This document shows, piece after piece, positions 1,501 to 64,000 of a DNA stretch of 64,000 bases; position 1 is the first letter of the stretch; every line of letters begins with the position of its first letter. This stretch comes from Taiwanofungus camphoratus (Eukaryota > Basidiomycota > Agaricomycetes > Polyporales > Taiwanofungaceae): assembly GCA_003999685.1 (NCBI GenBank), contig CP021224.1, positions 2,108,001-2,172,000 of the forward strand, in the 5' to 3' direction. The notes under the pieces are model-generated. The model made no database searches. It worked only from the letters and a program-made list of their open reading frames with translations, and was not told the origin of the DNA. Position numbers and translations under genes: made by a program.

Positions 1501-4642
<3,142 letters not shown>

Positions 4643-4704: not shown

Positions 4705-4809
4705 AGCGTATTCGCAGCCAGGTTCGAATTAGGTCCCGCACCAATCAGAGACCGTTATTTGCGTATTTTTTCCTTTTTTGCTTGAGTTCAAATTGGCTGC
4801 GAATACGCT
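4705..4809. repeat. Inverted repeat with 16-bp perfect arms
   Basis: Left arm AGCGTATTCGCAGCCA at 4705-4720, right arm its exact reverse complement at 4794-4809, spacer 73 bp. Similarity continues imperfectly inward (TTCGAA versus TTTGAA). It lies just upstream of the TRM4 start codon, so it may be a small folded element or a regulatory site; which one cannot be told. Confidence 0.7.
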
Positions 4810-41445: not shown

Positions 41446-43422
41446 TCAGCACTTGGCCGGCATCCCCTCCCTCCGCCGCCTCAGACTTGGTCGTAACATA
41501 CCCTCCATCTCCACCCCCGCCTCCTTACCTCCCTGCGTCATGTTCTCGATCCGCACCTCCTCTACCTCCGACAGCATCTGCGTCAATGCCCCGTGCTTTA
41601 CCACCACGCCCATGCTTGGCTCGACAAGCTCGCTTGTTGTGATGGTAGTGGCAGAGGTTGTCGTTGTAGCTGCCGTACAACCAGCGCCTCCAACCATCAG
41701 CCCCAGCCCCAGCCCCAGCCCTACACCTGCGCCCTGCCCACCAGCCAACGTGGAGACAGGCGCGCCGGCTGGGGTGGGTGGGTACAGCGAGAACGGCGAT
41801 GGTGGAGCCAGCGCGGGGGATGGCAGCGCCCGCAGCGCAAGCGTGCGTGGAGGCAACGCGAACGCGACGAGCGTCGGGGACCGCGGAGACCGTGGCGAAC
41901 GAGGGGACAAGGGCGACGTGGGCGACGGGTACAGCGCAGACAGCGGCGGCGTCGCACCAGGCCCGCTGCGGATGCCGCCCGGTGAGAAGTACTCGGTGCT
42001 CTCAACCACCCTCTTGTCCTTCACCACGCCCGCCTGCGCGAAATAGCCTCCGCCGGGCGACCGCACGCGGATTTGCTCGTCCCCGGCATTGGTGAGAGCA
42101 GGCGTGTCGCTCTCGGGCTCTGACGCGACGTCCGTATCTGTCGTGTCCGTCGACATGTCCGTCTCGGTGTCTGGCTCGGTGTCGCTCGCCGACACGGAAG
42201 AGGGCGGCGGAGAGCTGGGCGTGTGCAAGGGCGAGGACGGAGTTGTTGGAGGAGACATGGGGATCGTCGAGTGCGAGGCAGCCTCTGGCATGGTCAGCCG
42301 CTGACTCTCACACGGCTCCCCAGCACCAGGCACCAGCTCGCCAGCCTCGGGCGCGTCCATGAGCCGGACGAACATCATGTTGAGCCGCTGCTTAGGCGGG
42401 GGGGCAGGCATGGACTGCGGCTCGGGGAGGCGTGGGGGTGTCTCCTGCACTGGAAGCAGCGGCAGGAATGCGAATGTACGCGACAGGCGCGACGGCGTGA
42501 GCGTCGGCGTCGGGGGAGATGGCGGAGTGGCGTCGGTGGACGAGCCGGACGGTGTGCGGACGTGAATCTCCGGGATGGGGAGCCGAGTCGGTGATGGTGC
42601 GAGCGAAGTAGCGGCCATATCGGGCTGCAATGGCGGAGAACGCGGAGGAGACGGCTCCGGCTCCGGCTCCGGCTCAGAGGGAGTGTCAAGCAGAGGCAGG
42701 AGACGGATGGGGACGGCGTCGAGGTACGGCAGGATGGCCGGATCGACCGCTTCGGGGTCTGCCCGACGATTCTTCCAGCGCGCGGGCGTGTGCGACGGCT
42801 GTGTGGCGAAGCGCGAGTACGGGAACGACGGCGAGTGGCTGGGGGATGGGTCTGGAGGGGCCGGTGGAAGGGACGTCGTGAACGGTTGGCGTGGCGTGGG
42901 GCAGGGAGCGGTGCGGGGAAGACACAGCCGCAGCTGCTTGAGCTCGAGAACGTCCCTGTAGAGCGACAAGGTGTTAGCGTCCAGCATTAAGTAACGGCGG
43001 AGAAACGGAGACCCTCCGCCAGTGGGATCAGGCACAACCGATGCAGCGCAGGAACACTGGCTGACAACGGTCATCCATGACGTCGTCCGAGCCCTTGCCC
43101 GATTAGGCAACTCTCCCAGTCCTGCGCGCACACACGACTGCGCTCGAACGCTGCGAGACAAAAAAAAAAAAAGGCACACGCACTGGTAAGACAGCCTCGG
43201 CGTTACCGGCGCAGGCGAGCGATCCCACTCGTCTGCCTCGTGCACCTCCTCCAGCGCCTCTTCCCCGCAGAACGACACCCGCTTCTGCATCCCCATCCCC
43301 TCCCGTCCTGGTGGCGGTGGACTGGGCGACCCCCGCCCGCACTCGGACCCGCTCGGCGTCGACGCTTCGCTCACGTCCGGCGTCAGCGGCGGGGTCGTCT
43401 TGAGGCAGCTCTTCCGCGGCAT
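41446..43422 (-). CDS. Ser/Pro-rich protein with RVSF (PP1-docking type) motif, array copy 1
   Basis: Two exons, 43422-43184 and 42955-41446, 582 aa; the 228-nt intron is long for this genome and has a 12-T run near its donor. Start MPRKSCLKTTPPLTPDVSEA. Conserved core: KRVSFCGEEALEEVHEADEW then DRSPAPVTPRLSYQ, joined across the intron to DVLELKQLRLCLP; this matches a basidiomycete family I recall with KRV-F, ADEWDR and SYQD-LELK blocks. Later PAILPYLDAVPIRLLPLL and SRTFAFLPLLPVQETPP are short hydrophobic motifs within otherwise disordered sequence. KRVSF fits the RVxF docking motif for protein phosphatase 1. This copy has a C-terminus (SELVEPSMGVVVKHGALTQM onward) that the other copies lack. 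Function is unknown; the phosphatase link is inference. Confidence 0.75.
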   Translation of the reverse strand: MPRKSCLKTTPPLTPDVSEASTPSGSECGRGSPSPPPPGREGMGMQKRVSFCGEEALEEVHEADEWDRSPAPVTPRLSYQCVCLFFFLSRSVRAQSCVRAGLGELPNRARARTTSWMTVVSQCSCAASVVPDPTGGGSPFLRRYLMLDANTLSLYRDVLELKQLRLCLPRTAPCPTPRQPFTTSLPPAPPDPSPSHSPSFPYSRFATQPSHTPARWKNRRADPEAVDPAILPYLDAVPIRLLPLLDTPSEPEPEPEPSPPRSPPLQPDMAATSLAPSPTRLPIPEIHVRTPSGSSTDATPPSPPTPTLTPSRLSRTFAFLPLLPVQETPPRLPEPQSMPAPPPKQRLNMMFVRLMDAPEAGELVPGAGEPCESQRLTMPEAASHSTIPMSPPTTPSSPLHTPSSPPPSSVSASDTEPDTETDMSTDTTDTDVASEPESDTPALTNAGDEQIRVRSPGGGYFAQAGVVKDKRVVESTEYFSPGGIRSGPGATPPLSALYPSPTSPLSPRSPRSPRSPTLVAFALPPRTLALRALPSPALAPPSPFSLYPPTPAGAPVSTLAGGQGAGVGLGLGLGLMVGGAGCTAATTTTSATTITTSELVEPSMGVVVKHGALTQMLSEVEEVRIENMTQGGKEAGVEMEGMLRPSLRRRREGMPAKC

Positions 43423-44529
43423 CTCGGCGTGTTCGTCGCTAGCCTGGCAAATTCGTCGGGTGTCAGCGCCAGCGTGTGTGGTGGGTAGAGTGACGGGAGG
43501 GCAGGAGAGGGCCAGTCGTAGAGTCGCCTTGTAATGTAGAAAGCAGCTGTCTCACACCGAAAGGGGCCCCGCCGGAAGCAATGCTGCCAAATTATTGGCC
43601 TGCCCAGTCACGTGACTAGCCGTCTTTTATCGCGCAGGAAGGATCCGGGATGAGAGAGCGCCCGCCCGCCACACCGCCGCCCGCTCGCTCACTCGGCGCG
43701 CTCGAAATTCGTCCGCGTGACGAGCGCAGGGCCCGCTTCGGTGCTGTGTCTGCGACTCTGCTCATGTGCTGTGGACACTTGCACGACGAGCGCAATACCT
43801 CGACGACTTTCCAGTTGCTCGGGCGACTATGAGCATCGATCCGATATCTGAATGGACGCGCGATATTCGCGGTATGACGGCCCCGCACTTCGCACGCTCA
43901 GCGCGCTCTCTGCCAGGAACCCCCTCGAGGCGCAACTCGCTCTCCTCTCGTTCACATCGCGGGCCGCTCAGCCGCTCAGTATTCCGGCAGCTTGGAGTCC
44001 AGTCTGGCAGACGAGACGAGCGCCGAGACTGGGATAGCAGTTGCGCTTTCTCGATCCACCACCGGCATCCTGGGCTACAGTGCCCGCTGTCCATGTCGAT
44101 TTCCGCATACGCTGCGCTTGGTGCGCTCGTGCCATCTCTTCCGCTCTGACGGTCATATGCACGTGCCGTGTGCGCTGTTCCCGATGCCCGTACAACTCAT
44201 GCTTCGAGCGTAGTGGTGCGTGAGTTCCACCATGCAGGGCGCGCTCGCGCCTGTCTTCCTCCTCACAGGCTTGTGCTGGTCGGTCCACTGCACCCTCTGA
44301 GCGCCGTGAGCACTCGCCACTCATCACCGGGGGCGCGTTGCTGCGCTCACAGCGCCCCTGCCGATCTCCTCGCTCTTGACGCTCTGGCACTGGCCGCACG
44401 AACTCGACCCCTTGCCGTTCCCATCCCCCACTTCTCACGCTCGATCTCCTCAACCTGGAACTCGCTCGTCTCGCGTGCACACTTGGGTCGTCGAGAAGCT
44501 GCCAGGTACCCAACGCGACCGGAACGAAC
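43423..44529. other. Intergenic part of array unit 1
   Basis: GC-rich, overlapping frames on all strands; none shows a motif. Contains the segment whose inverted copy lies at about 40.3-40.6 kb. Probably the shared upstream region of the minus-strand RVSF gene and the small plus-strand gene. The equivalent stretches are 52,267-53,413 and 61,146-62,292. Confidence 0.5.
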
Positions 44530-44910
44530 ATGCGCGCAGTGCCTCGAGACGCTCGTGCACGCCCCAGGACTTGGGTGCGTATTCAGACCGTCTTCTGGAG
44601 CCTTGGGTCTGGACAACGACGCAGGGTGTCGGGATGGGCTTTACTGGTAAGCGTCCTCTTCCGTATCGAGTGCTGACAGTGCCCCGCCCACATCCAGTCA
44701 TCCACGGCTCGCGACTGGCAACCACCTCCTACCGAGCACGTTCGCGAACTGCGCGCGCGGACCTCGCCTCGCATCACCCTCGACTTCCACGCTGACGATT
44801 TCCAGCCTCGCGCAGAGTATCCGCCTGCGCCTTTCCGGCAGGCCGATGACGAGGGGCAGTTGATGCGAATGCCCGGCATGACACGGCCGTGGTTGGGTGT
44901 GTGCCGCTAG
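44530..44910 (+). CDS. Small two-exon ORF in array unit 1, unknown function
   Basis: Exons 44530-44646 and 44698-44910, 109 aa; upstream exons cannot be excluded. Exon 1 reads MRAVPRDARARPRTWVRIQT then VFWSLGSGQ. Exon 2 reads TARDWQPPPTEHVRELRART and then DFHADDFQPRAEYPPAPFRQ, ADDEGQLMRMPGMTRPWLGV, which has the residue balance of a real protein. The intron has good GTAAGC donor, GCTGAC branch and CCAG acceptor. In units 2 and 3, exon 1 is 4 nt longer and the acceptor region adds 14 nt, together 18, so frame is kept across the splice; this supports real coding. I do not recognise the family. Confidence 0.45.
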
Positions 44911-46690
44911 GTACGTAACGTCGATCTTGCTTTCCCTCGGCTCGCTAGGCCTCGCTCTTGGCCGATTTTGACGGTGAGGACTCGCACAGCCGTCTCCGCC
45001 GCCCGCGAGGCACTCGTACTGGCCGTACCGACGCTGCCCGCAGCTGGTCCCCGCTCGCCGTTCCACGTGCGTTTGGCCAGTTGCCTGGCAACGGCTATCC
45101 TGCCTTGCCTGCTCGCGGACTCGATTCGCTTGCGCACAGGGCAGGGTCGAGCTCGTCGCGGTTTCCCATATACAGCCATGGGGAAGCTGCATAGCCGACG
45201 CTGCGCGCTGTATGAGCGGCGAGCACCTCGGCGTGCTCGAGGATTGGGGGGCGGACGGGGATGCGTCTTTCCTCCCCGAATCTCGGCGCTGAACGCGGCG
45301 CGAGTGCCGCAACGCAACGCACCGCACCGCACCGCACCGCACCACGACCGAAAGTGTAACTACGGTACGGTACTCGGTTATTCTTAATAATACTGCCCCC
45401 GCCTCCTCCACGCTTTTGTGCCCGCCCTGCCAACGGGGCCACTCACGCCACGAGCCCGATGTCTGGGACGTTCTGAACGGCAGTGTGAGTTTAGCGGCGG
45501 ACCAACTCAAACGAATCGGTACGTACCTGTGATGCGCGAAGGGGAGAGATATAACGCGATGAAGGGCGAGCGGTCGATGGTGCTGGTGCCCTCGCCACCG
45601 TGACGATCATGCGACGGCGAGCGCAGTCAAGCCACTCGACCGCATCACGAACGGGGGGGGAGCATGGTGGAGGAGCGCTGCAGGTAGGTAGCAGGCATGT
45701 CAGTACATAGGTTGGCGGAAATATAGGTACGTTCCCTACCTCATTCATCGACGGTGAACGGCGTGCCTTCTCTGGTGGGCCGGCCTTGTAAATGCCCAGC
45801 GTGACGACATCGCCGTGGTTGGATGTGCCACTGCTGGGTATGCAACGTCAGCCTTGCTTCCAACCGACTCTGGAGCTCGCTGAGCCCTGCTCCTAGCCGA
45901 TTTCAACAACATTGAGGATCCACACTCACACAGCCGTCTCCGACCACTGTCTCCGACACACTCATGCTGGCCATACCGACGCTACCCGGAGCTGGTCCCC
46001 GCTCGCCGTTGCCCTAGCAGCGGCTGTCCTGCCTGCTCGGCGACTCGATTCGCTTGCGAACAGCGTAGAGTCGAGCTTGTCGCGGTATCCCACTCAGCCA
46101 AGGGGAAGCTGCATAGCCGATGCGAGCACCTCAGTGCGCTCGAGGGAGGAATGGGGGATGGACGGGTTCACCATGCCCGTCTCTCCTTCCCCAAATCTCA
46201 GCGCTGGGTCCCAGCTAGCCGAGAACGAACGGGCTGCGAGTGCCGCAACGCACCGCCCAGCGCACACGACCACGTCCAAGAGCGTAACTACGGTACGGTA
46301 ATCCAACATCTTTATAATACTGCCACCGCCTCCTCCTCGTCCCTCCACGCTTTTGCGCCCGCCCGCCCTACCAGCGGCCAGCGGAGCTATGAGCGCGATG
46401 TCTGAATTCAGCGGCGGGCCAACTCAACCGAACCGGTACATACATGTGATGCCCGAAGCAGAGAGATGAAGCGATGGAGAGCGAGGCAAAGGGTGAGCGG
46501 TCAATGGCGCTGGCACCCTCACGAATGTGCACAGATGTTCACGGACAGCGAGCGCAGTCAAACGACTTGACCGCATCGTGAACGGGGCATGGTGAGGCAC
46601 CAGAGGTAGGCAGCAGGCACGTCAGCACGTAGATTGACAGAAATCAAGGTACGTTCCCTACCTATCATAACCTGTGAACAGCTCGCGAAG
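44884..46690. repeat. Nested tandem duplication of about 0.9 kb inside the unit
   Basis: Segments 44,884-45,766 and 45,811-46,690 are diverged copies. Shared anchors in order: CCGTGGTTGG, CACAGCCGTCTCCG, AGCTGGTCCCCGCTCGCCGT, GGGGAAGCTGCATAGCCGA, AACTACGGTACGGTA, ACCGGTACGTAC-like, and GTACGTTCCCTACCT. Units 2 and 3 have the same pair (about 53,789-54,654 with 54,691-55,533, and from 62,668). The first copy overlaps the end of the small plus-strand gene. Confidence 0.8.
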
Positions 46691-48416
46691 CGCATGGTGG
46701 CGGAAGTGTTGGCATCATCGAGGTAAGCCTGATCGAGAAAAGAGAGGGAAACCACAGGTAACGGGAGGAAGAGAGAGAGAACAGCAGCGAGAACACCCAC
46801 CGATTTATACCCCCAATCCTCCGCCTCGTCCCCAGTCTGCTGACCCAACCCTCCATCATCCGCGCATCAATCAGGCGAAATGAATATCCACCGAGGCTAC
46901 GCGAGAACGGAGGCGAGAGACGAGAGACGAGAGACGAGAAACGCCGCCCGTCTCACATTCGCTTGCGCAGCGTTCCTGCATGGCTCTCGTAATCCCGCCA
47001 GAGGCTACACGGGCGGTGCCCCAGCGATGGTGAGCTGTCCATGCTTGGGTTGGCACTTGCAGGGATGACGGGTGGAAGTGACTGCTGCATTCTGTAGCGT
47101 CAGCGTCGGAAGGGGCAACGGAGAATGGGGTGCGGGAAGGACACACGGGAGACGAGAATTTGCATGTACGTACCCGATCAGACCAAGCGCAATCGCTAGC
47201 GAACCTTCGCTACAAGCGAAATGAGTGGAAGATGTTTCCTCCCGCTGGAATTTGTCCAATTATGGAGAAACACACCATATCTGTGAAATGAGCACTGCGA
47301 GATGAGAGTTCACGCACCCGGAAGGAGAGATGAGTGCATCCCCATACTCACACAGTCGAGATTCCAAAAAGGCTGGAAGCTTCATCCAGGTCTGCAACGA
47401 CAAACCTTCCGGTGCAGTACAGAGAACTGCGCCACGCCACTGGCACTGCCTGAAGGATGTTCCAGTGGTGCAGGATTCTATGAAAGGGTAAGAATAGCTG
47501 AGACACTTTGGCGAGGATACATCACGCAAAAGTAACGTACCGTTGCGAGCGCGAACCTTCGCGTACCTCAGCGGTGGCTATTACGCGTGGAAGTTTGTAT
47601 TTCGAAAATACGAAATGACGCGGCTGGGTAAATTCGCCCGTATCTCGGAATCTTTGTGACAGTGATGATGAGTACACGGAGCTCACAAAGGAACAACCTG
47701 ACAACAATGGGTGTCATGTCAGGAATACTGCTGTCAGTAGGCACAAGGTCTCGTTGCAATTCATGTTAATGGATGGGGAGCTCTCCGTTGTAGCCTAAAT
47801 GGAATAAATATCTAGGATTGTAAGGACAGGAGCACGAAAAACGGCAACAAACGAAAATGAACAGCACGCGCACTTACCTCAATTGTGAAGATCTTGTCCT
47901 TCGACTTCGAATATCCGTCACAATAATAAATCACTCACCCTAAGATGGGACTTGAAGTCACGGCAAAGCCAATGAGGGACTCCCGGATGTGACGTGGATC
48001 TGGGATCGTCGCTGATTAGATTGCCCCAGAGAGTGCGAGCAAACGAGTGTCAATTCCAGTTCGTACACCGACGTTCTGCAGTTTCATGCTTGAAATTAGA
48101 CCAAGGACATGCATACGGCCCCAACTCAGTCAGTAAATTGTAGCACACTGCACACGTGGGCATATGTAATTCAATAGACCGTTCCATTCCATTCACGTTG
48201 CGATTAGTATACAAAGATTTGAGACCAGAGGATCGAGCTTTGTGCGATGAGAAGGCTCAATGAAATGCTCGAGATTGACCAATCAGCCTTGTATGCTCAC
48301 AGACAATTGGATGTACGACTTGAACTTGACATCAGGTTGGTTGTGGGCTGACACTCTGGGCTGCTAGCACATTCATGAACTCCAGGACATACTTTTTTGC
48401 AGTTCTACTATGTCAA
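46691..48416. other. Unit interior with possible decayed minus-strand exons
   Basis: No gene could be built. Some minus-strand stretches look coding, such as AWRSSLYCTGRFVVADLDEA near 47,400 and NGMERSIELHMPTCAVCYNL near 48,170, with an intron-like GTACGA..CCCAG at about 48,000-48,060, but they could not be chained. Equivalent sequence in unit 2 is nearly the same, with matching frames. Confidence 0.3.
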
Positions 48417-48737
48417 TCAATTGTGTTTCGAGACGGGACTGCTCATAGATAAGATAAAAGTCAGATCAGCGGTACCACGGACTCGGTCACACGGTGACAC
48501 CACTGAAACTGCGGGAGGAATAAAATTCACACGGGAGACGATGGCGGACATAATTTGATCAGACGTAAAGGAAGAGTGAGCCGAGGCAAAGAACGATTTG
48601 CGACGGCTGTACATTAGGCAAAACATGATGGAATATTCTTGTTGATAGCAACCATTGCGCGACGGCATAATCGCAAGGTATAAGAGCACGTTGTAGTCCG
48701 ACGTGTTCGAGTCTCCCGTATGCCTCCATAATGCCAT
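48417..48737 (-). CDS. Conserved 106-codon ORF of the array unit, copy 1
   Basis: Single-exon frame starting MALWRHTGDSNTSDYNVLLY, with middle FFASAHSSFTSDQIMSAIV and end LSMSSPVSKHN. The second copy at 57,259-57,579 is equally long, with N/D and SP/GF replacements and no indel, so the frame has been kept through the divergence of units 1 and 2. No family recognised. It may be an exon of a larger minus-strand gene. Confidence 0.35.
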   Translation of the reverse strand: MALWRHTGDSNTSDYNVLLYLAIMPSRNGCYQQEYSIMFCLMYSRRKSFFASAHSSFTSDQIMSAIVSRVNFIPPAVSVVSPCDRVRGTADLTFILSMSSPVSKHN

Positions 48738-48899
48738 TTTGAAATGTTATCTAAGCTTGAAAGCCAAGAAGACAACATGGGTATGTGTATCTTTTAACGT
48801 GAAGAGCATGAGCTGATGATGATCACGTTCTCCATAGTTTGCTGAGCGCTTCATGAGTATTTCTGAGTGAAAAGCGGCCAAAACGACAATATATGTACA

Positions 48900-50340
48900 T
48901 ATTGCCGTCCCGTGAGCAGCCCTCTGTGCATTCTCAGCATTGGGCACACAGGAGTGTCCCTGTGAGTATGGTGAGCTTTGAGCTCCCGCCGTTCACGCAG
49001 TCACTACACGGGTCAAAAGCAGGGCCACCGTCACGATATCTGTAGATATCGACGTCCCGCGAGCAGGGGCAGGAGGCATAGCGCGGGGCAGATTTTGTGT
49101 TTCCAACTCTGAGGAGCGTGCCTGTAAGCACAGCGGTCCTCACAAGCTTCGAGCTCTCATGCAGTGATCCTCGCAGTGATCCTCGCGAGCTTCGAGCTCC
49201 CATGCAGTCATCGAGCATGCACCAGCCCTACGTCTACGACGTGGGTGAAATTAAGGCCGCCATTACAAAATCTACATATATCGACGTCCCGCGAGCAGGG
49301 GTAGAAGACCATCTCAAAGACATATTTTTTTCGTCCCGTGAGCAGGAGCGAGAGGTCATAGCGGGCGGCATCATCCCATTTGCTTGTGAGCACCACAGTT
49401 CTCACAAGGCTCAAGTTCTCGTTGAGTGAGTGGTTCAGATCTCAATCGTCGCGCGAAGTTTGCTAATGCGCAATTGGAAGCAGTGCTCACGCAACCTTCA
49501 AACAACACTCCATTGTTCAAAACGAGAGCGTGCCACCAGCAGTACTTACAAGTCCTTCAAAAGGCCAACACACGGGGCCTGTCCTGCCGTGTAAATGGCA
49601 TCTTTCTGTGGAAAACAAGGCTGCGGTGGGGTATGAGCTAACGGAGCACCAACTTGAACCACTTCACCGGAAGGGTGAGTGATTCCGATTCTATCATTGC
49701 GCGAAGTGCACTAACTGTGATTCGAAGCGGCACTTACACAACCTCCAAACGAGTACATCACCGGCACAGGACGTCGAACTGGCGTTCTGCTGCGAAAAAC
49801 CGAGCCGACGAACGAGGCAGCAGGCCCTATTCCGATGCCTGTTCTGCCGTCGTATCAGCACCCACCGGTGAGTGATTGCGATCCCAACCAACCATGATTG
49901 AGGGCAGTACTTACGAGAGCGTGCCACGAGAGCGTGCCAACCCTGCGCTGGGGTTTCAGCCGTTGCGCGTTATCCATGCCAAGGGGGGGCCACCTACTGA
50001 CGAGAAATCCTATCGAGGACGTCTGCGGGTGAGTGATTCCGACCTCCACCGTGATTCAGGGCAGTACTTATGTGAGAGCGCACCACAGGACCTTTGCTGC
50101 GAAAAACGAGAGCGCGCTAACCCCATGCTGGGGTTTCGGTGCACCGGAGCGAATGAGGGCTTGGGCCATCGCGCTGACTTACCCGTGGGGGCACATCATC
50201 TTGTCCCTGTGAAAAAGGGGAAACCACGTGAGTGAACGGAGCCAAAGACTGCTGTGGACTTACCTAGCGCTACCGGGGGCACATCGTCTTGCGTGCCCCG
50301 GAATTGATGAAAACCGAGTGTCCCTGCGGGGAGGGGAAAC
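48900..50340. repeat. Degenerate modules with splice-site-like ends, unit 1
   Basis: Imperfect repeats of about 150-250 bp. The first type begins ATATCGACGTCCCGCGAGCAG (three versions at about 48,900, 49,045 and 49,275). The second type has GTGAGTGATTCCGA at its start, GCAGTACTTACGAGAGCG-like sequence about 50 nt later, and GCTGCGAAAAAC further on (versions at about 49,421, 49,675, 49,870 and 50,030). In unit 1 two of the spacers look like true plus-strand introns with CTAAT/CTAAC branch sites, and the sequence between them reads open: HSIVQNESVPPAVLTSPSKG to LEPLHRK, then NEYITGTGRRTGVLLRKTEP. Whether it is a decayed repetitive gene or non-coding repeat is open. Confidence 0.6.
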
Positions 50341-50344
50341 CATG

Positions 50345-52266
50345 TCAGTCCACATAGCCGAAAAGTGCTCTGATCTTATCTGTTTTTACCCCTAACCTCC
50401 CTGCACACCAATCCCCTTCAACGAACGTAAGCATCCCACGCCCTCGCAACATGCCCTCCTCCACCTCGGCAGGCTCGCTTGTAGACGCCATACAACCAGC
50501 GCCTCCAACCATCAGCCCCAGCCCCAGCCCCAGCCCTACACCTGCGCCCTGCCCACCAGCCAACGTGGAGACAGGCGCGCCGGCTGGGGTGGGTGGGTAC
50601 AGCGAGAACGGCGATGGTGGAGCCAGCGCGGGGGATGGCAGCGCCCGCAGCGCAAGCGTGCGTGGAGGCAACGCGAACGCGACGAGCGTCGGGGACCGCG
50701 GAGACCGTGGTGAACGAGGCGAGCGCGGGGACAAGGGCGACGTGGGCGACGGGTACAACGCCGACAGAGGCGGAGTTGCGCCAGGCCCGCTGGAGATGCC
50801 GCGCGATGAGAAGTACTCGCCCACCTCGGTGCTCTCAACCACCCTCTTGTCCTTCACCACGCCCGCCTGCGCGAAATAGCCTCCGCCGGGCGACCGCACG
50901 CGGATTTGCTCGTCCCCGGCATTGGTGAGAGCAGGCGTGTCGCTCTCGGGCTCTGACGCGACGTCCGTATCTGTCGTGTCCGTCGACATGTCCGTCTCGG
51001 TGTCTGGCTCGGGTTCTGGTTCCGTGTCACTGGGAGATGCGGAGGGGGCCGGAGAGCTGGGCGTGTGCAAGGGCGAGGACGGAGTTGTTGGAGGAGACAT
51101 GGGGATGGTCGAGTGCGAGGCAGCCTCTGGCATGGTCAGCCGCTGACTCTCACACGGCTCCCCAGCACCAGGCACCAGCTCGCCAGCCTCGGGCGCGTCC
51201 ATGAGCCGGACGAACATCATGTTGAGCCGCTGCTTAGGCGGGGGGGCAGGCATGGACTGCGGCTCGGGGAGGCGTGGGGGTGTCTCCTGCACTGGAAGCA
51301 GCGGCAGGAATGCGAATGTACGCGACAGGCGCGACGGCGTGAGTGTCGGCGTCGGGGGAGATGGCGGAGTGGCGTCGGTGGACGAGCCGGACGGTGTGCG
51401 GACGTGAATCTCCGGGATGGGGAGCCGAGTCGGTGATGGTGCGAGCGAAGTAGCGGCCATATCGGGCTGCAATGGCGGAGAACGCGGAGGAGACGGCTCC
51501 GGCTCCGGCTCCGGCTCAGAGGGAGTGTCAAGCAGAGGCAGGAGACGGATGGGGACGGCGTCGAGGTACGGCAGGATGGCCGGATCGACCGCTTCGGGGT
51601 CTGCCCGACGATTCTTCCAGCGCGCGGGCGTGTGCGACGGCTGTGTGGCGAAGCGCGAGTACGGGAACGACGGCGGGTGGCTGGGGGATGGGTCTGGAGG
51701 GGCCGGTGGAAGAGACGTCGTGAATGGCTGGCGTGGCGTGGGGCAGGGAGCCGTGCGGGGAAGACACAGCCGCAGCTGCTTGAGCTCGAGAACGTCCCTG
51801 TAGAGCGACAAGGCGTTAGCGTCCAGCATTAACATTAAGTAACGGCGGAGAAACGGGGACCCTCCGCCAGTGGGATCAGGCACAACCGATGCAGCGCAGG
51901 AACACTGGCTGACAACGGTCATCCATGACGTCGTCCGAGCCCTTGCCCGATTAGGCAACTCTCCCAGTCCTGCGCGCACACGACTGCGCCCGAACGCTGC
52001 GAGACAAAAAAAAAAAGGCACACGCACTGGTAAGACAGCCTCGGCGTTACCGGCGCAGGCGAGCGATCCCACTCGTCTGCCTCGTGCACCTCCTCCAGCG
52101 CCTCCTCCTCGCAGAACGACACCCGCTTCTGCATCCCCATCCCCTCCCGTCCTGGTGGCGGTGGACTGGGCGACCCCCGCCCGCACTCGGACCCACTCGG
52201 CGTCGACGCTTCGCTCACGTCCGGCGTCAGCGGCGGGGTCGTCTTGAGGCAGCTCTTCCGCGGCAT
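50345..52266 (-). CDS. RVSF-motif Ser/Pro-rich protein, array copy 2
   Basis: Exons 52266-52028 and 51797-50345, 563 aa, same structure as copy 1. All length differences from copy 1 inside the coding exons are multiples of three: for example PAPSASPSDTEPEPEP in place of PPPSSVSASDTEP, STEVGEYFSSRGISSG in place of STEYFSPGGIRSG, and one extra SPR in the RSPRSPRSP run. The conserved core reads KRVSFCEEEALEEVHEADEW. After the Gly/Leu run the C-terminus is different from copy 1: ASTSEPAEVEEGMLRGRGML and an end KIRALFGYVD. Confidence 0.72.
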
Positions 52267-53413
52267 CTCGGCGTGTTCGACGCTAGCTGGCAGGTTGGTC
52301 GAGTGGAAGCGCCAGCGTGTGGTGGGTAGAGTGACGGGAGGGCAGGAGAGGGCCAGTCGTAGAGTCGCCTTGTAATGTAGAAAGCAGCTGTCTCACCGAA
52401 AGGGGCCCCGCCGGAAGCAATGCTGCCAAATTATTGGCCTGCCCAGTCACGTGACAGGCCGTCCTTTATCGCGCAGGAAGGATCCGGGATGAGAGAGCGC
52501 CCGCCCGCCACACCGCCGCCCGCTCGCCGCGCGTGACGAGCGCAGGGCCCTAAGACTCTTTGGTGCTGTGTCTACGACTCTGCTGGTGCCCTGCCGACGC
52601 TTGCACGACGAGCGCAACATGCTCAACGACTTTCCAGCTGCTGCTCGGGCGTCGATCGACTCGATCTCAATGGACGCGCGATATTCGCGGTATGACTGCC
52701 CGGCACTTCGCACGCTCAGCGCGCTCTCTGCCAGGACCCTCTCGAGGCGCAACCGCTCTCTCCTCTCGTTCGCATCTCGAGCCGCCCAGCCGCTCACTCA
52801 GTATTCCGACAGCTTGGAGTCCAGTCTGGTAGACGAGACGAGCGCCGAGACTGGGGTGGCAGGTGCGCTTTCCTCGATCCACCACCGGCATCCTGGGCTA
52901 CAGTGCCCGCTGTCCGTGTCGATTTCCGCATACGCTGCGCTTGGTGCGCCCGTGCCATCTCTTCCACGCTGACGTTCGTATGCACGTGCCGTGTGTGCGC
53001 TGTTTCCGATGCCCGTACAACTCATGCTCCGAGCGTAGCATGCGCGCGGTGCGTGAGTTCCACCATGCAGGGCGCGCGCGCTTGCGCCTGTCTTCTCTCT
53101 CCCAGGCTTGTGCTGGTCGGTCGGTCCACTGCACCCTCTGAGCGCCGTGAGCACTCGCCACTCATCACCGGGGGCGTGTTGCTGCGCTGCGCTCACAGCG
53201 CCTCCGCCGATCTCCTCGCTCTCAACGTTCTGGCACTGGCCGCGCCAACGCGCCAGATCCACAATACGACTCGGACTGCCCTCGGCCCCTTGCCGTTCCC
53301 ATCCCCCCACTTCTCACACTCGATCTCCTCTCCGTTTCGCGGAACTCACTCATCTCGCGTGCGCACTCGGGTCGTCGAGAAGCTGCCAGGCACCCAACGC
53401 GACCGGAACGAAC

Positions 53414-53816
53414 ATGCGCGCAGCGCCTCGAGATGCTCGCGCACGCCCCAGGACTCGGGTGCGTATTCAGACCGTCTTCTGGAGCCTTGGGTCTGGACAA
53501 CGACGCTCGCAGGGCGGCGGGATGGGCTTTACTGGTAAGCGTCCTCTTCCATATCGAGTGCTGACAGTGCCCCGCCCACAGACCATTTCATCCCGTCATC
53601 CACGGCTCGCGACTGGCAACCACCTCACACCGAGCACGTTCGCGAACTGCGCGCGCGCGCGCTTCGCCTCGCATCACCCTCGACTCCCGCGCGCAGACGA
53701 TTTCCGGCCTCGCGCAGAGGTATCCGCCTGCGCCTTTCTGGCATGCCGATGACGAGGGGCAGTTGATGCGAATGCCCGGCATGACACGGCCGTGGTTGGG
53801 TGTGTGCCGCTAGGTA
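53414..53816 (+). pseudogene. Copy 2 of the small two-exon ORF, C-terminal part frame-shifted
   Basis: Exon 1 53414-53534, exon 2 from 53582. Frame is conserved across the splice as far as EHVRELRAR, then a 2-bp longer GC run and further small indels move the frame, so the DFHADDFQPRAEYPP block of unit 1 is lost in frame although its bases remain. It may still encode a shorter protein ending MPMTRGS. Classed as pseudogene with doubt. Confidence 0.4.
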
Positions 53817-56800
53817 CGTAACGTCGGTCTTGCTTTCCCTCGGCTCGCTAGGCCTCGCTCTTGGCCGATTTTGACGGTGAGGACTCGTACAGCCGTCTCC
53901 GCCGCCCGCGAGGCACTCGTACTGGCCGTACCGACGCTGCCCGCAGCTGGTCCCCGCTCGCCGTTCCACGTGCGTTTGGCCAGTTGCCTAGCAGCGGCCA
54001 TCCAGCCTGCTCGCGGACTCGATTCGCTTGCGCACAGGGCAGGGTCGAGCTCGTCGCGGTTTCCCATATACAGCCATGGGGAAGCTGCATAGCCGACGCT
54101 GCGCGCTGTATGAGCGGCGAGCACCTCGGCGTGCTCGAGGATTGGGGGGCGGACGGGGATGCGTCTTTCCTCCCCGAATCTCGGCGCTGAACGCGGCGCG
54201 AGTGCCGCAACGCACCGCACCGCACCGCACCACGACCGAAAGTGTAACTACGGTACGGTACTCGGTTATTCTTAATAATACTGCCCCCGCCTCCTCCACG
54301 CTTTTGTGCCCGCCCTGCCAACGGGGCCACTCACGCCACGAGCCCGATGTCTGGGACGTTCTGAACGGCAGTGTGAGTTTAGCGGCGGACCAACTCAAAC
54401 GAACCGGTACGTACCTGTGATGCGCGAAGGGGAGAGATATAACGCGATGAAGGGCGAGCGGTCGATGGTGCTGGTGCCCTCGCCACCGTGACGATCATGC
54501 GACGGCGAGCGCAGTCAAGCCACTCGACCGCATCACGAACGGGGGGGAGCATGGTGGAGGAGCGCTGCAGGTAGGTAGCAGGCATGTCAGTACATAGATT
54601 GGCGGAAATATAGGTACGTTCCCTACCTCATTCATCGACGGTGAACGGCGTGCCTTCACGAGTGGGGCATTGTGAATGCCCAGCGTGACGATATGGCCGT
54701 GGTTGGATGTGCCACTGGGTACGCAACGTCAGCCTTGCTTCCACTCGGCTCTGGCTTGCTGAGCCCTGCTCCTAGCCGATTTCCACGCACACAGCCGTCT
54801 CCAACCACTGTCTCCGACACACTCATGCTGGCCATACCGACGCTACCCGGAGCTGGTCCCCGCTCGCCGTTGCCTAGCAGCGGCTATCCTGCCTGCTCGG
54901 CGACTCGATTCGCCTGCGAACAGCGTAGAGTCGAGCTTGTCGCGGTATCCCACTCAGCCAAGGGGAAGCTGCATAGCCGATGCGAGCACCTCAGTGCGCT
55001 CGAGGAATGGGGGATGGACGGGTTCACCATGCCCGTCTCTCCTCCCCAAATCTCAGCGCTGGGTCCCAGCTAGCCGAGAACGAACGGGCTGCGAGCGCCG
55101 CAACGCACCGCCCAGCGCACACGACCACGTCCAAGAGCGTAACTACGGTACGGTAATCCAACATCTTTATAATACTGCCGCTGCCTCCTCCTTGTCCCTC
55201 CACGCTTTTGCGCCCGCCCTACCAACGGCCAGCGGAGCTATGAGCGCGATGTCTGAATTCAGCGGCGGGCCAACTCAACCGAACCGGTACGTACATGTGA
55301 TGCCCGAAGCAGAGAGATGAAGCGATGGAGAGCGAGGCAAAGGGTGAGCGGTCAATGGCGCTGGCACCCTCACGAATGTGCACAGATGTTCACGGACAGC
55401 GAGCGCAGTCAAACGACTTGACCGCATCGTGAACGGGGCATGGTGAGGCACCAGAGGTAGGCAGCAGGCACGTCAGCACGTAGATCGACGGAAATCAAGG
55501 TATGTTCCCTACCTATCTTCGACGGTGAACGGCGTGCGAAGCGCATGGTGGCGGAAGTGTTGGCATCATCGAGGTAAGCCTGATCGAGAAAAGAGAGGGA
55601 AACCACGGAGACTGAAAAGGTAACGGGAGGAAGAGAGAGAACAGCAGCGAGAACACCCACCGATTTATACCCCCAATCCTCCGCCTCGTCCCCAGTCTGC
55701 TGACCCAACCCTCCATCATCCGCGCATCAATCAGGCGAAATGAATATCCACCGAGGCTACGCGAGAACGGAGGCGAGAGACGAGAGACGAGAAACGCCGC
55801 CCGTCTCACATTCGCTTGCGCAGCGTTCCTGCATGGCTCTCGTAATCCCGCCAGAGGCTACACGGGCGGTGCCCCAGCGATGGTGAGCTGTCCATGCTTG
55901 GGTTGGCACTTGCAGGGATGACGGGTGGAAGTGACTGCTGCATTCTGTAGCGTCAGCGTCGGAAGGGGCAACGGAGAATGGGGTGCGGGAAGGACACACG
56001 GGAGACGAGAATTTGCATGTACGTACCCGATCAGACCAAGCGCAATCGCTAGCGAACCTTCGCTACAAGCGAAATGAGTGGAAGATGTTTCCTCCCGCTG
56101 GAATTTGTCCAATTATGGAGAAACACACCATATCTGTGAAATGAGCACTGCGAGATGAGAGTTCACGCACCCGGAAGGAGAGATGAGTGCATCCATACTC
56201 ACACAGTCGAGATTCCAAAAAGGCTGGAAGCTTCATCCAGGTCTGCAACGACAAACCTTCCGGTGCAGTACAGAGAACTGCGCCACGCCACTGGCACTGC
56301 CTGAAGGATGTTCCAGTGGTGCAGGATTCTATGAAAGGGTAAGAATAGCTGAGACACTTTGGCGAGGATACATCACGCAAAAGTAACGTACCGTTGCGAG
56401 CGCGAACCTTCGCGTACCTCAGCGGTGGCTATTACGCGTGGAAGTTTGTATTTTGAAAATACGAAATGACGCGGCTGGGTAAATTCGCCCGTATCTCGGA
56501 ATCTTTGTGACAGTGATGATGAGTACACGGAGCTCACAAAGGAACAACCTGACAACAATGGGTGTCATGTCAGGAATACTGCTGTCAGTAGGCACAAGGT
56601 CTCGTTGCAATTTATGTTAATGGATGGGGAGCTCTCCGTTGTAGCCTAAATGGAATAAATATCTAGGCAGGAGCACGAAAAACGACAACAAACGAAAATG
56701 AACAGCACGCGCACTTACCTCAATTGTGAAGATCTTGTCCTTCGACTTCGAATATCCGTAACAATAATAAATCACTCACCCTAAGATGGGACTTGAAGTC

Positions 56801-57258
56801 ACGGCAAAGCCAATGAGGGACTCCCGGATGTGACGTGGATCTGGGATCGTCGCTGATTAGATTGCCCCAGAGAGTGCGAGCAAACGAGTGTCAATTCCAG
56901 TTCGTACACCAACGTTCTGCAGTTTCATGCTTGAAATTAGACCAAGGACATGCATACGGCCCCAACTCAGTCAGTAAATTGTAGCACACTGCACACGTGG
57001 GCATATGTAATTCAATAGACCGTTCCATTCCATTCACGTTGCGATTAGTATACAAAGATTTGAGACCAGAGGATCGAGCTTTGTGCGATGGAGAAGGCTC
57101 AATGAAATGCTCGAGATTGACCAATCAGCCTTGTATGCTCACAGACAATTGGATGTACGACTTGAACTTGACATCAGGTTGGTTGTGGGCTGACACTCTG
57201 GGCTGCTAGCACATTCATGAACTCCAGGACATACATTTTTGCAGTTCTACTATGTCAA

Positions 57259-57579
57259 TCAATTGTGTTTCGAGACAAAACCGCTCATAGATAAGATAAA
57301 AGTCAGATCAGCAGTACCACGGACTCGGTCACACGGTGACACCACTGAAACTGCGGGAGGAATAAAATTCACACGGGAGACGATGGCGGACATAATTTGA
57401 TCAGACGTAAAGGAAGAGTGAGCCGAGGCAAAGAACGATTTGCGACGGCTGTACATTAGGCAAAACATGATGGAATATTCTTGTTGATAGCAACCATCGC
57501 GCGACGGCATAATCGCAAGGTATAAGAGCACGTTGTAGTCCGACGTGTTCGAGTCTCCCGTATGCCTCCATAATGCCAT
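57259..57579 (-). CDS. Conserved 106-codon ORF of the array unit, copy 2
   Basis: Same start and stop positions as the unit 1 copy, with few replacements (SRDGCYQQ, LSMSGFVSKHN). No indel between the copies. Function unknown. Confidence 0.35.
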   Translation of the reverse strand: MALWRHTGDSNTSDYNVLLYLAIMPSRDGCYQQEYSIMFCLMYSRRKSFFASAHSSFTSDQIMSAIVSRVNFIPPAVSVVSPCDRVRGTADLTFILSMSGFVSKHN

Positions 57580-57739
57580 TTTGAAATGTTATCTAAGCTC
57601 GAAAGCCAAGAAGACAACATGGGTAGGTGTATCTTTTAACGTGAAGAGCATGAGCTGATGATGATCACGTTCTCCATAGTTTGCTGAGCGCTTCATGAGT
57701 ATTTCTGAGTGAAAAGCGGCCAAAACGACGATATATGTA

Positions 57740-59218
57740 CATATCGCCGTCCCGTGAGCAGCCCTCTGTGTATTCTCAGCATTGGGCACACAGGAGTGTC
57801 CCTGTGAGTATGGTGAGCTTTGAGCTCCCGCCGTTCACGCAGTCACTACACGGGTCAAAAGCAGGGCCACCGTCACGATATCTGTAGATATCGACGTCCC
57901 GCGAGCAGGGGCAGGAGGCATAGCGCGGGGCAGATTTTGTGTTTCCAACTCTGAGGAGCGTGCCTGTAAGCACAGCGGTCCTCACAAGCTTCGAGCTCTC
58001 ATACAGTGATCCTCGCAGTGATCCTCGCGAGCTTCGAGCTCCCATGCAGTCATCGAGCATGCACCAGCCCTATGTCTACGACGTGGGTGAAATTAAGGCC
58101 GCCATTACAAAATCTACATATATCGACGTCCCGCGAGCAGGGGTAGAAGACCATCTCAAAGACATATTTTTTTCGTCCCGTGAGCAGGAGCGAGAGGTCA
58201 TAGCGGGCGGCATCATCCCGTTTGCTTGTGAGCATCACAGTTCTCACAAGGCTCAAGTTCTCATTGGGTGAGTGGTTCGGATCTCAACCGTTGCGCAATT
58301 GTGCTCACGCAACCTCCAAAAACGACGCTCTGTTGTTCAAAACAACAGCGCACCACCAGCAGTACTTACAAGGCCTCGAAATGGCGTATCACCGCAATAA
58401 AAAAAAAAAAGGGCTGACGTACAAGGCCTTTCCTACCCTGTAAATGGCATCTTTCTGTGGAAAACGAGGCTGCGGTGAGGTATGAGCTAACGGAGTACCA
58501 ACTTGAACCACTTCACCGGAAGGGTGAGTGATTCCGATTCTATCATTGTGCGCGAAGTGCACTAACTGTGATTTGAAGCGGCACTTACACAACCTCCAAA
58601 CGAGTACATCACCGGCACAGGACGTCGAACTGGCGTTCTGCTGCGAAAAACCGAGCCGACGAACGAGGCAGCAGGCCCTATTCCGATGCCTGTTCTGCCG
58701 TCGTATCAGCACCCACCGGTGAGTGATTGCGATCCCAACCAACCATGATTGAGGGCAGTACTTACGAGAGCGTGCCACGGGACCCTTGCTGCGAAACACG
58801 AGAGCGTGCCAACCCTGCGCTGGGGTTTCAGCCGTTGCGCGTTATCCATGCCAAGGGGGGGCCACCTACTGACGAGAAATCCTATCGAGGACGTCTGCGG
58901 GTGAGTGATTCCGACCTCCACCGTGATTCAGGGCAGTACTTATGTGAGAGCGCACCACAGGACCTTTGCTGCGAAAAACGAGAGCGCACTAACCCCATGC
59001 TAGGGTTTCAGCTGTCTTTTCTGCGGAGCGAATGAGGGCTTGGGCCATCGCGCTGACTTACCCGTGGGGGCACATCATCTTGTCCCTGTGAAAAGGGGAA
59101 ACCACGTGAGTGAACGGAGCCAAAGACTGCTGTGGACTTACCTAGCGCTACCGGGGGCACATCGTCTTGCGTGCCCCGGAATTGATGAAAAACCGAGTGT
59201 CCCTGCGGGGAGGGGAAA
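57740..59218. repeat. Degenerate modules with splice-site-like ends, unit 2
   Basis: Same array as in unit 1, but the piece corresponding to the first plus-strand intron has lost its branch/acceptor bases near 58,300, and an A-run (12 A) stands at about 58,398-58,409, so the open reading seen in unit 1 is broken here. In exchange, about 30 bp missing from unit 1 are present near 58,779-58,805 (CGGGACCCTTGCTGCGAAAC). Confidence 0.6.
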
Positions 59219-59223
59219 CCATG

Positions 59224-61145
59224 TCAGTCCACATAGCCAAAAAGTGCTCTGATCTTATCTGTTTTTACCCCTAACCTCCCTGCACACCAATCCCCTTCAA
59301 CGAACGTAAGCATCCCACGCCCTCGCAACATGCCCTCCTCCACCTCGGCAGGCTCGCTTGTAGACGCCATACAACCAGCGCCTCCAACCATCAGCCCCAG
59401 CCCCAGCCCCAGCCCTACACCTGCGCCCTGCCCACCAGCCAACGTGGAGACAGGCGCGCCGGCTGGGGTGGGTGGGTACAGCGAGAACGGCGATGGTGGA
59501 GCCAGCGCGGGGGATGGCAGCGCCCGCAGCGCAAGCGTGCGTGGAGGCAACGCGAACGCGACGAGCGTCGGGGACCGCGGAGACCGTGGTGAACGAGGCG
59601 AGCGCGGGGACAAGGGCGACGTGGGCGACGGGTACAACGCCGACAGAGGCGGAGTTGCGCCAGGCCCGCTGGAGATGCCGCGCGATGAGAAGTACTCGCC
59701 CACCTCGGTGCTCTCAACCACCCTCTTGTCCTTCACCACGCCCGCCTGCGCGAAATAGCCTCCGCCGGGCGACCGCACGCGGATTTGCTCGTCCCCGGCA
59801 TTGGTGAGAGCAGGCGTGTCGCTCTCGGGCTCTGACGCGACGTCCGTATCTGTCGTGTCCGTCGACATGTCCGTCTCGGTGTCTGGCTCGGGTTCTGGTT
59901 CCGTGTCACTGGGAGATGCGGAGGGGGCCGGAGAGCTGGGCGTGTGCAAGGGCGAGGACGGAGTTGTTGGAGGAGACATGGGGATGGTCGAGTGCGAGGC
60001 AGCCTCTGGCATGGTCAGCCGCTGACTCTCACACGGCTCCCCAGCACCAGGCACCAGCTCGCCAGCCTCGGGCGCGTCCATGAGCCGGACGAACATCATG
60101 TTGAGCCGCTGCTTAGGCGGGGGGGCAGGCATGGACTGCGGCTCGGGGAGGCGTGGGGGTGTCTCCTGCACTGGAAGCAGCGGCAGGAATGCGAATGTAC
60201 GCGACAGGCGCGACGGCGTGAGTGTCGGCGTCGGGGGAGATGGCGGAGTGGCGTCGGTGGACGAGCCGGACGGTGTGCGGACGTGAATCTCCGGGATGGG
60301 GAGCCGAGTCGGTGATGGTGCGAGCGAAGTAGCGGCCATATCGGGCTGCAATGGCGGAGAACGCGGAGGAGACGGCTCCGGCTCCGGCTCCGGCTCAGAG
60401 GGAGTGTCAAGCAGAGGCAGGAGACGGATGGGGACGGCGTCGAGGTACGGCAGGATGGCCGGATCGACCGCTTCGGGGTCTGCCCGACGATTCTTCCAGC
60501 GCGCGGGCGTGTGCGACGGCTGTGTGGCGAAGCGCGAGTACGGGAACGACGGCGGGTGGCTGGGGGATGGGTCTGGAGGGGCCGGTGGAAGAGACGTCGT
60601 GAATGGCTGGCGTGGCGTGGGGCAGGGAGCCGTGCGGGGAAGACACAGCCGCAGCTGCTTGAGCTCGAGAACGTCCCTGTAGAGCGACAAGGCGTTAGCG
60701 TCCAGCATTAACATTAAGTAACGGCGGAGAAACGGGGACCCTCCGCCAGTGGGATCAGGCACAACCGATGCAGCGCAGGAACACTGGCTGACAACGGTCA
60801 TCCATGACGTCGTCCGAGCCCTTGCCCGATTAGGCAACTCTCCCAGTCCTGCGCGCACACGACTGCGCCCGAACGCTGCGAGACAAAAAAAAAAAGGCAC
60901 ACGCACTGGTAAGACAGCCTCGGCGTTACCGGCGCAGGCGAGCGATCCCACTCGTCTGCCTCGTGCACCTCCTCCAGCGCCTCCTCCTCGCAGAACGACA
61001 CCCGCTTCTGCATCCCCATCCCCTCCCGTCCTGGTGGCGGTGGACTGGGCGACCCCCGCCCGCACTCGGACCCACTCGGCGTCGACGCTTCGCTCACGTC
61101 CGGCGTCAGCGGCGGGGTCGTCTTGAGGCAGCTCTTCCGCGGCAT
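59224..61145 (-). CDS. RVSF-motif Ser/Pro-rich protein, array copy 3
   Basis: Exons 61145-60907 and 60676-59224, 563 aa, the same predicted protein as copy 2. Same intron and same C-terminus. Everything sits exactly 8,879 bp from copy 2. Identity this high means very recent duplication, gene conversion, or an assembly repeat. Confidence 0.72.
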
Positions 61146-62292
61146 CTCGGCGTGTTCGACGCTAGCTGGCAGGTTGGTCGAGTGGAAGCGCCAGCGTGTG
61201 GTGGGTAGAGTGACGGGAGGGCAGGAGAGGGCCAGTCGTAGAGTCGCCTTGTAATGTAGAAAGCAGCTGTCTCACCGAAAGGGGCCCCGCCGGAAGCAAT
61301 GCTGCCAAATTATTGGCCTGCCCAGTCACGTGACAGGCCGTCCTTTATCGCGCAGGAAGGATCCGGGATGAGAGAGCGCCCGCCCGCCACACCGCCGCCC
61401 GCTCGCCGCGCGTGACGAGCGCAGGGCCCTAAGACTCTTTGGTGCTGTGTCTACGACTCTGCTGGTGCCCTGCCGACGCTTGCACGACGAGCGCAACATG
61501 CTCAACGACTTTCCAGCTGCTGCTCGGGCGTCGATCGACTCGATCTCAATGGACGCGCGATATTCGCGGTATGACTGCCCGGCACTTCGCACGCTCAGCG
61601 CGCTCTCTGCCAGGACCCTCTCGAGGCGCAACCGCTCTCTCCTCTCGTTCGCATCTCGAGCCGCCCAGCCGCTCACTCAGTATTCCGACAGCTTGGAGTC
61701 CAGTCTGGTAGACGAGACGAGCGCCGAGACTGGGGTGGCAGGTGCGCTTTCCTCGATCCACCACCGGCATCCTGGGCTACAGTGCCCGCTGTCCGTGTCG
61801 ATTTCCGCATACGCTGCGCTTGGTGCGCCCGTGCCATCTCTTCCACGCTGACGTTCGTATGCACGTGCCGTGTGTGCGCTGTTTCCGATGCCCGTACAAC
61901 TCATGCTCCGAGCGTAGCATGCGCGCGGTGCGTGAGTTCCACCATGCAGGGCGCGCGCGCTTGCGCCTGTCTTCTCTCTCCCAGGCTTGTGCTGGTCGGT
62001 CGGTCCACTGCACCCTCTGAGCGCCGTGAGCACTCGCCACTCATCACCGGGGGCGTGTTGCTGCGCTGCGCTCACAGCGCCTCCGCCGATCTCCTCGCTC
62101 TCAACGTTCTGGCACTGGCCGCGCCAACGCGCCAGATCCACAATACGACTCGGACTGCCCTCGGCCCCTTGCCGTTCCCATCCCCCCACTTCTCACACTC
62201 GATCTCCTCTCCGTTTCGCGGAACTCACTCATCTCGCGTGCGCACTCGGGTCGTCGAGAAGCTGCCAGGCACCCAACGCGACCGGAACGAAC

Positions 62293-62695
62293 ATGCGCGC
62301 AGCGCCTCGAGATGCTCGCGCACGCCCCAGGACTCGGGTGCGTATTCAGACCGTCTTCTGGAGCCTTGGGTCTGGACAACGACGCTCGCAGGGCGGCGGG
62401 ATGGGCTTTACTGGTAAGCGTCCTCTTCCATATCGAGTGCTGACAGTGCCCCGCCCACAGACCATTTCATCCCGTCATCCACGGCTCGCGACTGGCAACC
62501 ACCTCACACCGAGCACGTTCGCGAACTGCGCGCGCGCGCGCTTCGCCTCGCATCACCCTCGACTCCCGCGCGCAGACGATTTCCGGCCTCGCGCAGAGGT
62601 ATCCGCCTGCGCCTTTCTGGCATGCCGATGACGAGGGGCAGTTGATGCGAATGCCCGGCATGACACGGCCGTGGTTGGGTGTGTGCCGCTAGGTA
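62293..62695 (+). pseudogene. Copy 3 of the small two-exon ORF
   Basis: Identical to copy 2 at an offset of 8,879 bp, with the same shifted C-terminal frame. Confidence 0.4.
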
Positions 62696-64000
62696 CGTAA
62701 CGTCGGTCTTGCTTTCCCTCGGCTCGCTAGGCCTCGCTCTTGGCCGATTTTGACGGTGAGGACTCGTACAGCCGTCTCCGCCGCCCGCGAGGCACTCGTA
62801 CTGGCCGTACCGACGCTGCCCGCAGCTGGTCCCCGCTCGCCGTTCCACGTGCGTTTGGCCAGTTGCCTAGCAGCGGCCATCCAGCCTGCTCGCGGACTCG
62901 ATTCGCTTGCGCACAGGGCAGGGTCGAGCTCGTCGCGGTTTCCCATATACAGCCATGGGGAAGCTGCATAGCCGACGCTGCGCGCTGTATGAGCGGCGAG
63001 CACCTCGGCGTGCTCGAGGATTGGGGGGCGGACGGGGATGCGTCTTTCCTCCCCGAATCTCGGCGCTGAACGCGGCGCGAGTGCCGCAACGCACCGCACC
63101 GCACCGCACCACGACCGAAAGTGTAACTACGGTACGGTACTCGGTTATTCTTAATAATACTGCCCCCGCCTCCTCCACGCTTTTGTGCCCGCCCTGCCAA
63201 CGGGGCCACTCACGCCACGAGCCCGATGTCTGGGACGTTCTGAACGGCAGTGTGAGTTTAGCGGCGGACCAACTCAAACGAACCGGTACGTACCTGTGAT
63301 GCGCGAAGGGGAGAGATATAACGCGATGAAGGGCGAGCGGTCGATGGTGCTGGTGCCCTCGCCACCGTGACGATCATGCGACGGCGAGCGCAGTCAAGCC
63401 ACTCGACCGCATCACGAACGGGGGGAGCATGGTGGAGGAGCGCTGCAGGTAGGTAGCAGGCATGTCAGTACATAGATTGGCGGAAATATAGGTACGTTCC
63501 CTACCTCATTCATCGACGGTGAACGGCGTGCCTTCACGAGTGGGGCATTGTGAATGCCCAGCGTGACGATATGGCCGTGGTTGGATGTGCCACTGGGTAC
63601 GCAACGTCAGCCTTGCTTCCACTCGGCTCTGGCTTGCTGAGCCCTGCTCCTAGCCGATTTCCACGCACACAGCCGTCTCCAACCACTGTCTCCGACACAC
63701 TCATGCTGGCCATACCGACGCTACCCGGAGCTGGTCCCCGCTCGCCGTTGCCTAGCAGCGGCTATCCTGCCTGCTCGGCGACTCGATTCGCCTGCGAACA
63801 GCGTAGAGTCGAGCTTGTCGCGGTATCCCACTCAGCCAAGGGGAAGCTGCATAGCCGATGCGAGCACCTCAGTGCGCTCGAGGAATGGGGGATGGACGGG
63901 TTCACCATGCCCGTCTCTCCTCCCCAAATCTCAGCGCTGGGTCCCAGCTAGCCGAGAACGAACGGGCTGCGAGCGCCGCAACGCACCGCCCAGCGCACAC

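Follow-up and report, generated by a model that had tools for sequence, protein, structure and literature searches.

Tandem arrays of Taiwanofungus camphoratus that share a long core and a private 20-nt motif and carry parts of different genes

What kind of repeat fills the end of the 64,000-nucleotide stretch of the Taiwanofungus camphoratus genome studied here, and how did a gene come to be part of its unit? The stretch (the window, at its full length) corresponds to positions 2108001-2172000 of contig CP021224.1, called C5 below, in an assembly of 33,194,378 bases on 15 contigs, of which C1, C2 and C12 also concern us. From the window alone, the original prediction had described a recent head-to-tail amplification of a gene-bearing segment. 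What it missed is that the C5 unit consists of a stretch of a host gene and a long non-coding core (approximately 5.7 kb), and that this core and a private motif are common to three other loci, the attached gene in C5 and C1 being different from that in C2. On balance, we think that these loci are macrosatellite-like arrays under concerted evolution which took in a gene at their edge by illegitimate exchange. As a rule, large tandem arrays go with ribosomal DNA (rDNA) or with a single gene. Arrays that share a core and an exact private motif but differ in their gene, the intact source of which stands at the edge, would open a way to ask why loci amplify and to study how arrays absorb neighbouring genes, and the motif would offer a direct handle to a binder.

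Window positions 41661-64000 consist of direct repeats, units 1 and 2 being spaced 8,815-8,903 and units 2 and 3 8,878-8,879 apart, in agreement with the three direct units of 8.8-8.9 kb originally proposed; no inverted pairs of 200 nt or more were found within window 38000-64000. The window holds about 2.5 copies, starting at 41661, 50344 and 59223. Copy c01 (41661..50343) is the left edge, belongs to an older type and begins at unit position 132; c02 (50344..59222) serves as the reference unit, in which unit position p equals window position 50343 + p; c03 (59223..64000) is cut by the window end. No strand is assigned to these copies or to the core and its blocks. The suspected continuation beyond the window was found in the assembly, where the array spans C5:2149661-2240691 and comprises ten copies of an 8,879-bp unit and a partial eleventh. 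Copies c01-c05 start at C5 positions 2149661, 2158344, 2167223, 2176102 and 2184983, and c06-c10 at 2193875, 2202753, 2211650, 2220531 and 2229410; the partial c11 starts at 2238315 and ends at 2240691, within the upstream part of the gene and not at the core end.

All eleven C5 copies were aligned and the substitutions per kb were computed pairwise. The inner copies c02-c09 differ from each other by 0.0-0.9 substitutions per kb, and from the edge copy c01 by 28.6-29.1, so that the claim of two nearly identical units and an older first one holds far beyond chance. The values against c02-c09 are 10.9-11.7 for c10 and 27.2-30.7 for the partial c11. Of the 268 substitution columns of c01-c10, c01 alone accounts for 168 and c10 alone for 22; a further 71 unite c01 with c10 to the exclusion of the other copies, and seven involve c07. 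In the listed columns of c10 (80 of 93), deviations from the inner type fall at unit positions 166-279 and next only at 4126; the copy is of the inner type between approximately 280 and 4125 and shares the c01 type from approximately 4255 on. An exchange point thus lies within c10, which is a mosaic of the inner and older types and bears the mark of unequal exchange. The mosaic and the pairwise differences together mean that the older type is kept at both edges and that the inner type has spread recently. Unequal exchange or conversion within the C5 array, as the original prediction suspected, is therefore well supported, and the array combines head-to-tail units longer than about 1 kb with array-wide homogenisation, as macrosatellites do.

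It is very improbable that the assembler simply multiplied a few real copies. Such an artefact would fit the almost substitution-free inner copies and the indel noise in c05, c06 and c07, which show 21, 27 and 37 indels relative to c03, one-base in all but one case; homopolymers hold 13, 19 and 22 of these, and the same copies show 0.0, 0.0 and 0.8 substitutions per kb. It does not fit the distinct edges, the mosaic c10 and the separate arrays in C2 and C12 with units of their own. We read the c05-c07 indels as consensus error, and the exact number of C5 copies is for this reason unproven.

The core of the C5 unit (window 53572..59319; unit 3229-8880 and 1-97) is patchily common to the C2, C12 and C1 loci. 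A 380-nt piece of it, searched against the genome, gave at least 33 matches, all in four loci on four of the 15 contigs: at least 10 in C5, 18 in C2, two in C12 and three in C1, all counts being lower bounds. The C1 locus is a remnant with two core copies, one of them split, hence the three matches. The unit lengths of C5, C2 and C12 are 8.9-9.9 kb (spacing approximately 9,600 in the right part of C2 and 9,863 in C12), and two fully read C2 units are 98.3% alike. Identity in ungapped core blocks is 0.83-0.85 between C5 and C1 and 0.71-0.82 for the remaining pairs. The core end, which is fused to the altered gene (window 59055..59319, minus strand), is alike in all four loci; its part at about unit 1-97, which holds GATGCTTACGTT, is similar throughout, and the sequence preceding it differs. 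A DNA search with the core end found it ten times in C5, 14 times in C2 and once in C1; in C12 it was seen by direct alignment only. A candidate compensated hairpin lies near the core end.

The most distinctive part of the core is the 20-nt motif ATATCGACGTCCCGCGAGCA. Its 96 exact genome matches (67 in C2, 19 in C5, eight in C12 and two in C1) all lie within the four loci and share one orientation relative to the unit, and the reversed control pattern had no genome match. Exact copies stand on the plus strand at window 49046..49065 and 49278..49297 in c01 and at 57888..57907 and 58120..58139 in c02, where a variant with two mismatches is found at 57741..57760 (plus strand). With up to five mismatches, 19 motif sites, 12 of them exact, were counted in one unit each of C5, C2 and C12 and the C1 remnant, and one site, in C1, on the opposite strand; shuffled sequences averaged 0.05-0.2. 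Conservation around the motif drops beyond about 45 nt, and RNA structure around it is unremarkable (z-scores 0.19, -0.80, 1.22 and -0.14). As a guess by analogy with rDNA, the motif could be a putative factor site, either a fork barrier or a terminator, that makes the core recombine.

The two longest conserved blocks of the core were tested for coding capacity: block B, which is rich in G+C (window 53572..56103; unit 3229-5760), and block A (window 56210..57592; unit 5867-7249). The tests used fixed 180-nt windows at first, which small exons could escape, and then proceeded block by block with permutations; they covered both blocks, up to unit 7249, and in addition a single stretch common to C2 and C12. 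None of the 12 pairwise comparisons of blocks A and B revealed an excess of change at every third base (P 0.239-0.934), and the C2-C12 stretch gave no coding signal either (P 0.309). Coding sequences simulated with similar length and divergence were detected in five of five runs at omega 0.1 and again at omega 0.3; at omega 0.5, P was ≤0.05 in only three of five runs, so that coding sequence under weak constraint may have gone unnoticed. A spliced long RNA from the core was also considered and is unsupported. The GT[AG][AG]GT pattern is enriched on both strands of the C5 unit (14 and 15 vs shuffle means of 6.9 and 5.5) and on one of the two strands of the C2 unit (9 and 19 vs 7.3 and 7.5), yet whole intron-like patterns (8, 6, 10 and 3 vs 4.0-4.7 in shuffles) show no clear excess. 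A 4.2 kb core piece found no match among plasmid sequences, in which relatives are not expected.

The gene part of the C5 unit comes from a Ser/Pro-rich gene, which is intact only at the left edge of the array. There, the gene (window 41446..43422, minus strand) is predicted from putative splice sites to encode 582 aa, including a KRVSF string that resembles a docking motif for protein phosphatase 1; exon 1 is predicted at 43184-43422, the intron at 42956-43183 (228 nt) and exon 2 at 41446-42955. Its 3' end falls outside the repeat. In the inner copies, sequence close to the 3' end is deleted, and about 30 codons read from the core stand in place of the last ones. The altered copies of c02 (window 50345..52266, minus strand; 230-nt predicted intron), c03 (59224..61145, minus strand) and c04 are 563 aa long, and those of c10 and c11, which keep slightly more of the old tail, 568 and 565 aa. 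In c05, c06, c07, c08 and c09 a stop is met after 400, 272, 168, 539 and 507 aa. Consensus error may be the cause in c05-c07; this is less clear for c08 and c09, which have only two indels each relative to c03. In total, six of the 11 gene copies are open to their expected end, and ten of 11 have the 3' end altered by the layout.

The maintained gene of the original prediction is supported. In spliced codons, c01 and the inner unit differ by 24 synonymous changes at 422 sites and 11 non-synonymous changes at 1,101 sites (binomial P = 5.9e-7), which indicates purifying selection on the C5 gene; the constraint may have acted on one or both branches. The inner copies are nevertheless not intact, since their altered 3' end runs into the core. 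The indels between c01 and the inner unit measure 3, 12, 9 and 9 nt in the coding part, and 2, 2 and 6 nt in the intron. The raw unspliced alignment of edge and inner gene had shown 32, 26 and 35 changes by codon position without a third-position excess because the intron and the replaced tail were included. The gene product matches nothing in Pfam, NCBIfam or PDB, and a genome search with the gene detected no copies beyond C5 except a relic of exon 1 in C1.

In C2, the same core end is attached to a truncated histidine-phosphatase gene: six-frame Pfam analysis of the C2 unit found His_Phos_2 (E 1.9e-21) and a Fasciclin match below the cut-off. The units therefore do not carry the same intact gene throughout, as those of a tandem gene cluster would. 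The match covers profile positions 8-218 in the inner C2 unit and 8-237 in older copies, and extends to 354 at the right edge. Read along the gene, the order is identical in C5 (minus strand) and C2 (plus strand), that is, a series of altered gene-core units followed by the intact gene, which stands at the left edge of C5 and the right edge of C2, in both cases downstream in the direction of the gene. The C2 units may derive from one that carried the C5 gene, a lead that is not established: the His_Phos stretch has a 15-nt match where it begins (5' boundary) and a G-rich stretch of similar kind at the 3' boundary, but neither C2 nor C12 gave a convincing tblastn match to the C5 protein.

The joining of one core end to different sequences, in related loci with the same core, argues for capture. 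On this account, the four related macrosatellite-like loci have units made of a core that is non-coding where tested, a few oriented copies of the private motif and a stretch of host gene, and the arrays grow and homogenise through unequal exchange or gene conversion. Illegitimate exchange would join the edge gene to the fixed end of the core at a point within or close to the 3' part of the gene; the new gene-core unit would then spread, and the intact gene would remain at the array edge. We infer this step and its order from the layout of the arrays. Such a capture explains most simply why two genes are joined to a single core end and why an intact copy stands at the edge.

Plain tandem duplication dispenses with capture: the core would be each gene's ordinary neighbour, and a breakpoint in the gene would be followed by unequal crossing-over. 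A breakpoint near the end of the gene likewise leaves an intact gene at one edge, and the older type at both C5 edges fits as well. We nonetheless consider this rather unlikely, since joining the same core end to two different genes would need the identical breakpoint twice, and since the right edge of C5 stops in the upstream part of the gene, not at the core end, unless this was later lost. That right edge is accommodated, together with the order seen in C5 and C2, by an extrachromosomal circle of core and gene stretch which re-entered by homologous recombination at the gene, leaving repeated gene-core units and an intact gene. However, the right flank of C5 continues as weak unit-like sequence, so the edge may reflect decay and not a boundary, and such a hypothetical circle appears quite improbable.

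Several points weigh against edge-gene capture in macrosatellite-like arrays. The capture step itself was never observed. The core identity of 0.71-0.85 between loci may simply reflect age instead of constraint, the motif being the one element that stands out. In the coding test, seven of 228 single blocks reached P ≤0.02, with about 4.6 expected. The inner C2 His_Phos copy is frame-shifted by a one-base insertion relative to the edge and is probably no working gene, which means that capture need not serve gene function. The C12 head had no Pfam match in six frames. In its left-most copy, the head is matched from query position 75 onward, and positions 11-67 are weakly matched some 180 nt to the left of it, an arrangement that would fit the C5 and C2 layout. 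Finally, the assembly may have affected copy number.

The arrays were also compared with known systems. An rDNA array was rejected, as no rRNA or other Rfam family scored above cut-off: there were no matches in the window at the gathering score, none in the C5 unit up to E 1, and a single one far below cut-off in one C2 stretch (His_leader, 26.2 vs 49 bits). A transposable element was rejected as well. Six-frame Pfam searches of the C5, C2 and C12 units found no transposase, integrase or reverse transcriptase domain (the C5 and C12 units gave no match at all, in line with the original remark that the C5 unit has no transposase), and there are no dispersed single copies among the core matches. 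Arrays of rDNA resemble the loci described here in their homogenised tandem unit of 8-10 kb, short oriented motifs in the non-coding part and more diverged edges, but the C5 unit lacks rRNA. Histone and CUP1 clusters have a gene in every unit, and purifying selection on the C5 gene is a further likeness; the fungal arrays, in contrast, keep the core constant, with an exchangeable, 3'-altered gene. Mammalian macrosatellites such as D4Z4 and DXZ4 are homogeneous head-to-tail arrays of kilobase-sized units with G+C-rich stretches and a gene or part of one in the unit. The fungal loci are alike in all these respects but, unlike them, are four loci that share a core, change the gene part and keep an intact source gene at the edge. 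Macrosatellites also differ in copy number from one individual to the next; the fungal data come from a single genome. Centromeric arrays, for comparison, come one to a chromosome in kinetochore chromatin, and the fungal loci occupy four of the 15 contigs. Among the titles and abstract openings surveyed, which included few subscription papers, no description of such arrays was found, which is no proof of absence; mammalian macrosatellites are treated in PMC3599962.

By analogy with rDNA, the loci might even represent a class of self-amplifying fungal arrays, in which the core and a dedicated motif factor would drive rDNA-like amplification without rRNA and take over edge genes. The factor would mark a fork barrier, a terminator or a replication site, and captured genes would gain many copies and a new 3' end. 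We regard such a class as speculative and unlikely.

Some minor observations concern the surroundings of the arrays. In the C5 flank, Pfam detected fungal protein kinase family matches and a weak F-box match. A 3.5 kb stretch with two fungal-kinase matches (window 36785-40251) recurs inverted at about C5:2261804-2265272 with 98% identity. Just past the 3' end of the intact gene, window 40314-40587 repeats the gene-upstream segment (unit 2224-2509) in inverted orientation with about 80% identity, and the right flank of the C5 array opens with sequence 92% alike to window 40314-40587, inverted. In C2, pieces of the unit lie at C2:3091772-3101878, 24-35 kb left of the start of the main array, where the edge is broken up. 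The C2 unit also contains an open reading frame (L029:1385-1693, minus strand) that is directed away from the His_Phos stretch and weakly present in C12; no copy was found outside C2 and C12, and the C2-C12 stretch gave no coding signal. An insert with 559-bp direct repeats (99.8% alike) at its ends splits the C1 remnant and, by its form only, resembles a long terminal repeat retrotransposon; the remnant is flanked by a 4.0 kb direct repeat (C1:3723532-3727563 and C1:3747889-3751901) whose copies are 98.7% alike.

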